A program made the translations under genes and the position numbers. Below are positions 29,328-30,109 of a stretch of DNA of 64,000 bases, in pieces. A model generated the notes under the pieces. That model saw only the letters and a program-made list of their open reading frames with translations. It was not told where the DNA came from and made no database searches. Source of the stretch: Pseudomonadales bacterium (GTDB taxonomy: Bacteria > Pseudomonadota > Gammaproteobacteria > Pseudomonadales > Pseudohongiellaceae); the NCBI GenBank assembly GCA_022827425.1, contig JAJDSZ010000108.1, positions 1 through 64,000 on the forward strand. Reading direction: 5' to 3'. Each line of letters opens with the position of its first letter. Position 1 is the first letter of the stretch.

Positions 29328-29355
29328 TTGACGAAATACGGGAATTCAGTATAGT
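29328..29355 (+). promoter_or_regulatory. Sigma70-type promoter for the BrnT-HTH fusion gene
   Basis: TTGACG-N16-TATAGT; -10 ends 6 bp before the GTG start. Confidence 0.55.
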
Positions 29356-29361
29356 TGGCCG

Positions 29362-29880
29362 GTGGACAGCAGTTTCGACCCTCAGAAAGATTTGATCAAC
29401 CGCCGGAGGCACAAGTTGTCGCTGGCGTTTGGAGAGAGGGTCGTCAAAGACGATGACCATTTGATTGTTCCTTCAATTCGTCCTCAGGACGGCGAGGAGC
29501 GGTACAAGGTGATCGGTATAGTAGAGGGGAAACTGTATACCGGTGTGTATACGTGGCGGGATGGGCTGCGTCGATTCATTTGGTCAGACGGAGCAACACA
29601 GGTGAAGAAAGAGCATATCGTACTGCCGGCTGATCCTTCGGACCCGGAAGATTTTGATGTTACGCGGGAGGCGATGGAGCGAGGACAGCGAGCCCGGCTG
29701 ATCAGGCAAACGAGAACCGGACTTGGACTCTCGCAGCAGGAGTTCGCGAGCCGTTTTCATGTTCCCGTGGGAACGCTGCGCGATTGGGAGCAGGCGCGAG
29801 CGCGGGCGCCCGACTTCGCCATCGCTTACGTGCGCGTCATCGGCAGACATCCCGATATAGTTTTGCAAGCTGTCGGCTGA
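29362..29880 (+). CDS. BrnT-like toxin domain fused to XRE/HTH antitoxin-type domain
   Basis: N-term FDPQKDLINRRRHKLSLAFG…DGEERYKVIGIVEGKLYTGVYTWRDGLRRF resembles BrnT; C-term LGLSQQEFASRFHVPVGTLRDWEQARARAPDFAIAYVRVI resembles the HTH partner commonly next to BrnT. Confidence 0.75.
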   Translation: MDSSFDPQKDLINRRRHKLSLAFGERVVKDDDHLIVPSIRPQDGEERYKVIGIVEGKLYTGVYTWRDGLRRFIWSDGATQVKKEHIVLPADPSDPEDFDVTREAMERGQRARLIRQTRTGLGLSQQEFASRFHVPVGTLRDWEQARARAPDFAIAYVRVIGRHPDIVLQAVG

Positions 29881-29912
29881 TGCGGGTTTCTTGCATGTAT
29901 GAAGAAGGCGAG

Positions 29913-29940
29913 CCAGGAGCCTGCGCCACAGGAATTCGCG
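29913..29940. repeat. Interspersed palindromic repeat family A
   Basis: CCAGGAGCCTGCGCCACAGGAATTCGCG. Confidence 0.75.
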
Positions 29941-30109
29941 AAAGCGAAAATTCGCTATCGCCGCGCCCCCGGCCGGTCGATCGAGGCGAATATTGGTGGA
30001 TATGCAACGAAATCGAGCGGTCGGGGGCTATGTGCTGAACCCGCACAGCCCGGCGATAATCCGGGGGACCTGTGGTACACTGAACGGGTTTTCGAACGAT
30101 GGCCCCGAA

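Follow-up and report, generated by a model that had tools for sequence, protein, structure and literature searches.

An apparent BrnT-HTH fusion in a Pseudomonadales bacterium: a toxin-antitoxin operon probably disarmed by the loss of a single base

The locus and its signals

The window analyzed here, i.e. the whole stretch of 64,000 nucleotides from a Pseudomonadales genome, contains a continuous ORF of 172 aa with a GTG start, which a sequence-only reading had described as a BrnT-type toxin fused to its HTH antitoxin. The continuity of the ORF and the nature of its two halves were borne out by our analyses (Table 1). The Pfam BrnT_toxin profile matches the ORF with E = 1.4e-13 (2.6e-14 for residues 1-80 only), and residues 5-73 match PF04365 with 51.4 bits, above the Pfam cut-off of 34.5 bits. 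However, this match fills only positions 1-68 of the 77 positions of the profile; thus the toxin domain is incomplete and lacks its C-terminal strand and helix, which are present in the intact toxins of the relatives G096, L046 and L051 (profile positions 1-77). The C-terminal part of the ORF matches the HTH_3, HTH_31 and MqsA-type HTH families at about 1e-5 to 1e-6; in the profile search the antitoxin matched these families and not BrnA (PF14384), which comprises RHH proteins.

Table 1. Features of the brnT-HTH locus, in coordinates of the window
Feature	Position	Strand	Remarks
Sigma-70-like promoter TTGACG-N16-TATAGT	29328..29355	+	10/12 consensus matches; 1 found versus 0.5 expected in shuffles
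Near-palindrome TACGGGAATTCAGTA	29337..29351	+	Overlaps the -10 element; similar TACGG-N5-6-CGTA-like motif before brnT in most relatives
Apparent fused ORF, 172 aa	29362..29880	+	Putative product of the deletion; absent from relatives with intact brnT
brnT codons 1-73, GTG start, toxin frame kept	29362..29580	+	PF04365 positions 1-68; 97% identity to the intact G096 toxin, residues 3-73
1-nt deletion site	29581..29582	+	Toxin codon 74 has two bases; one base more in all aligned relatives
Stranded brnT 3' end VRRSNTGEERAYRTAG, third frame	29583..29633	+	Stop TGA 29631-29633; 16/16 residues identical to residues 75-90 of the G096 toxin
Shine-Dalgarno GGAG of the antitoxin	29590..29593	+	8 nt before GTG 29602; GGAGCAA invariant in eight aligned loci
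HTH antitoxin gene, 92 aa, complete	29602..29880	+	Own GTG start; HTH_31/HTH_3/MqsA-type matches

It had also been supposed that the ORF needs no second start signal, but the antitoxin has both a Shine-Dalgarno sequence and a GTG codon of its own, and the GGAGCAA block together with a GTG or ATG start is conserved among the aligned relatives. In particular, the antitoxins of four of them (G096, G097, G134 and G135) are 91-98% identical to that of the window and begin with the same GTG. The predicted promoter ends 6 nt upstream of the toxin start codon, and therefore the toxin message is probably leaderless. The near-palindrome that overlaps the -10 element is likely the operator to which the antitoxin would bind. 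Its only exact match in the window genome is the site at the operon, and in a search of six same-genus genomes exact matches were found only at the operon itself (in the window genome and in G096); sites with one mismatch in the same six genomes exceeded the reversed control in number, but these sites are weak, and we claim no regulon.

Directly behind the antitoxin gene, at 29910-30028, there begins a dispersed repeat with 57 further matches in the window genome, many of them 90-97% identical and often accompanied by a second, inverted copy. It is also present in G096, folds strongly as RNA (z -3.2) and looks like an element of the REP/BIME type. An Rfam match to snoR9 beside the locus scored far below the gathering score and was taken as chance. 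The only other BrnT of the window genome (L113; contig C60, 21628-21858) is complete and overlaps a gene for a BrnA-like RHH antitoxin.

The missing base and the toxin it leaves

Among the relatives whose operon occupies this gcvT-flanked chromosomal site, the nearest is G096 (locus L040), a genome of the same genus whose DNA is 93-96% identical to that of the window over about 9.5 kb. Its brnT is intact (90 aa, ending with RRFISVRRSNTGEERAYRTAG and a stop codon), and its antitoxin gene starts inside the 3' end of brnT in a different frame. According to the DNA alignment with the relatives, the base missing from the window falls between ATTT and GG. The unusual segment IWSDGATQVKKEH, previously taken for a changed BrnT motif, is simply the antitoxin reading frame extended back to the deletion, while the normal toxin tail and its stop codon lie in the third frame. 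Apart from the one missing base, the layout of the window, with the toxin first and an overlapping HTH antitoxin in another frame, is that of 15 intact HTH-type relatives. Since the same toxin tail persists in the third frame and the base is present in the relatives, the missing base reflects a genuine frameshift or else one error in the assembly, and neither of these gives a fusion module. The interpretation of the ORF as a fused module is thus abandoned: a frameshift separating two genes had been named beforehand as the observation that would overturn it, and such a frameshift emerges here from comparison with relatives, not from reads. We are highly confident that the locus consists of two genes that overlap and that a base has been lost from it, be it by mutation or by an error in the assembly.

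An assembly or sequencing error, with the organism in fact possessing an intact overlapping operon, appears unlikely. It is true that just one base is at issue, in one assembly made up of 130 contigs, and that G096 is intact at the same site. Nonetheless, the indel in codon 74 is the only one that breaks a coding frame relative to G096 in the syntenic DNA, where the sole other gap inside a gene comprises 3 nt in gcvP; moreover, the deletion is not located in a homopolymer longer than three, and comparable single-base breaks of the toxin occur in other genomes and plasmids.

The consequences of a true deletion for the toxin can be mapped on the model of the intact G096 protein (AlphaFold2, mean pLDDT 90), in which the last strand spans residues 69-77 and the last helix residues 80-89. 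The shift after residue 73 cuts this strand and removes the helix, and with them 7 of the 23 toxin residues that are invariant across 13 relatives (S74, V75, R76, S78, N79, E82 and Y86). In the related toxin Aave_1720, mutagenesis showed a conserved glutamate near the C-terminus, E86, to be important for activity (PMC10714953), and E82 would be its counterpart here. Judging from the missing invariant residues, the window toxin is probably inactive; hence the suspicion that it is attenuated was probably right. A phmmer search of PDB sequences with the intact G096 toxin returned nothing significant, and a Foldseek search with its model returned one toxin-antitoxin structure (7vd7_A, E 3e-6, TM 0.77).

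Intact and decayed relatives

In 17 of the loci read (L040, L046, L048-L057, L059, L071 and L109-L111) the toxin is intact and the antitoxin gene occupies a different frame; in two of these, L055 and L057, the antitoxin is of the RHH (BrnA) type. Single-base deletions in the toxin, all with a net change of -1, were found in six loci: the window, L043 (Amaricoccus solimangrovi), L070 (G878), L103 (Sinorhizobium sp. K101), L105 (Cereibacter azotoformans) and L112 (Acetobacter pasteurianus 386B). Larger internal deletions affect the toxin in L044, L104, L107 and L108, and L039, L041, L042, L047 and L106 retain just the 3' end of the toxin as a remnant. The antitoxin frame is open in every locus with a decayed toxin. 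It must be noted that the query included the antitoxin, so that the reverse case (antitoxin lost, toxin kept) would be invisible and the counts should not be read as a rate. A search of 906 genomes at the levels of family, class and phylum, together with genome contigs and plasmids, found no complete BrnT joined in frame to this antitoxin; where a relative possesses both genes, they occupy two frames or the locus has separate frame breaks of its own. The viral contigs searched contained no relative.

The decayed loci allow for consideration of programmed ribosomal frameshifting, in which a -1 shift near codon 74 would yield a full-length toxin besides the fusion. Several relatives with -1 breaks indeed retain a legible toxin frame downstream, and the 1-nt deletions in L043 (about 1593) and L070 (about 1600) lie mid-brnT, about two codons apart at most, in different genomes. 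However, the -1 breaks are mostly scattered over different codons (about 7-15, 32, 66 and 74), the window site shows no slippery heptamer of the X-XXY-YYZ type, and in 17 relatives the toxin is read without any shift, which makes this mechanism exceedingly improbable.

In most same-genus pairs the antitoxin has a dN/dS of 0.03-0.14, which suggests its retention by selection, but the value reaches 0.36 in the close pair G134/G135, and the window and G096 antitoxins, with three non-synonymous and no synonymous differences, offer no synonymous change that could show it. In the same-genus genomes G097, G134 and G135 only the last 24-26 codons of the toxin are left, and the antitoxins are 90-95% identical to that of G096. 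At these loci (L039, L042 and L041, respectively; about 1470-1800) the antitoxin and the toxin stub lack the promoter of the operon, and the antitoxin directly follows a gene that, by reading of its sequence, resembles VOC/glyoxalase proteins.

The canonical brnTA operon of Brucella abortus (PMC11980606, PMC10714953) resembles the window in that a BrnT-family toxin is encoded before the antitoxin, but BrnA of Brucella abortus has an RHH domain, whereas the antitoxin of the window has an HTH domain. Closer counterparts are the bicistronic BrnT and HTH operons of Cereibacter sphaeroides MBTLJ-13 (plasmid a) and Komagataeibacter saccharivorans CV1 (plasmid unnamed3), annotated as 'BrnT family toxin' and 'helix-turn-helix domain-containing protein'. 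They share with the window the gene order, an overlap of about 30 nt, the +1 frame of the antitoxin, its Shine-Dalgarno sequence and start inside the toxin end, and an operator-like motif before the toxin; the window differs by the base missing from codon 74 of its toxin, whose end is read in the antitoxin frame. The decayed members from Sinorhizobium sp. K101 (pK101a), Cereibacter azotoformans ORIO (pORIO3), Acetobacter pasteurianus 386B and Amaricoccus solimangrovi share with it a single-base -1 deletion in brnT and a preserved antitoxin, but all four have a stop between the toxin start and the antitoxin, and hence no fused ORF. A stop-free ORF is found in only two of the six net -1 cases, the window and G878. 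Our literature search on orphan antitoxins with frameshifted toxins yielded nothing directly on the BrnT/HTH family.

The antitoxins themselves may be modular. The N-terminal motif PADPxDPEDFDV of the window antitoxin recurs in the Sphingomonas RHH antitoxins of L055 (which matches BrnA) and L057. In a longer form, IAIPADPxDPEDFDVT, it is common to the antitoxins of L055 and L057 (about 1739-1990) and L056 (1724-2011), and the domain behind it is either RHH (BrnA) or HTH, as if a toxin-binding segment were combined with interchangeable DNA-binding domains.

Origin of the apparent fusion

A survey from 2025 listed 33 one-gene fusions of BrnT with an antitoxin (PMC11980606), in which the antitoxin part is stated to carry an RHH domain in 31 cases and an HTH domain in two; frameshifts do not come up in its main text. 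Like these, the window combines a BrnT part and a DNA-binding part in one ORF, and an automated scan would take it for a fusion of this type. It differs in that its ORF is traceable to a demonstrable 1-nt frameshift with loss of the toxin C-terminus. One could argue from these precedents, and from the open ORF with its plausible promoter and operator, that the whole ORF encodes a functional protein, either a self-neutralised BrnT-HTH module or a domesticated autorepressor. However, the C-terminus of the toxin is intact in another frame, the toxin domain is truncated within its last strand, and no relative found shares this state. We therefore regard a functional fusion as very improbable; the self-neutralisation or domestication proposed by the sequence-only reading gained no positive evidence, and no relative found in the search has a complete BrnT in frame with this antitoxin.

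Instead, we propose with fairly high confidence that the locus is a two-gene BrnT/HTH operon of type II that has been disarmed: brnT would have been broken by a single-base deletion, while the self-starting antitoxin was retained. Such an operon consists of a brnT gene followed by an HTH antitoxin gene overlapping its end in the +1 frame. Given this offset of +1 between the two frames, every change of net -1 within the toxin brings the toxin start into phase with the antitoxin, and a deletion in codon 74 would thus both disarm brnT and join the two genes. Whether the resulting ORF is stop-free depends on a stop in the antitoxin frame, often the TGA in GTGAGAAGG; in about half of the intact relatives with a listed antitoxin frame, this frame stays free of stops over at least 26 codons before the start. 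In the window there is, by chance, no intervening stop, and consequently both genes are read as one ORF. The antitoxin's own Shine-Dalgarno sequence and GTG could still allow the intact protein to be produced, presumably with continued expression and autoregulation. The product of the upstream start, a BrnT core devoid of the last helix, part of the last strand and the invariant residues, should be non-toxic. The apparent fusion is best described as the product of a frameshift, i.e. as ordinary gene decay, as far as can be judged from sequence comparison.

It is tempting to extend this scenario and to suppose that overlap in the +1 frame offers these operons a safe path of decay, as -1 deletions in brnT leave ribosomes that start at the toxin in phase with the antitoxin; some of the fused proteins would then be produced and kept on as autoregulators or antidotes, and some of the reported one-gene BrnT-HTH fusions might be explained in this way. 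We think this quite improbable. In any case, the locus calls for caution, as one lost base in an overlapping toxin-antitoxin operon can create a convincing fusion ORF, and the catalogued fusions deserve to be screened for toxin tails left behind in a different frame. The locus is also one more instance of a clear pattern in the BrnT/HTH family, in which the toxin decays repeatedly and the antitoxin stays intact.
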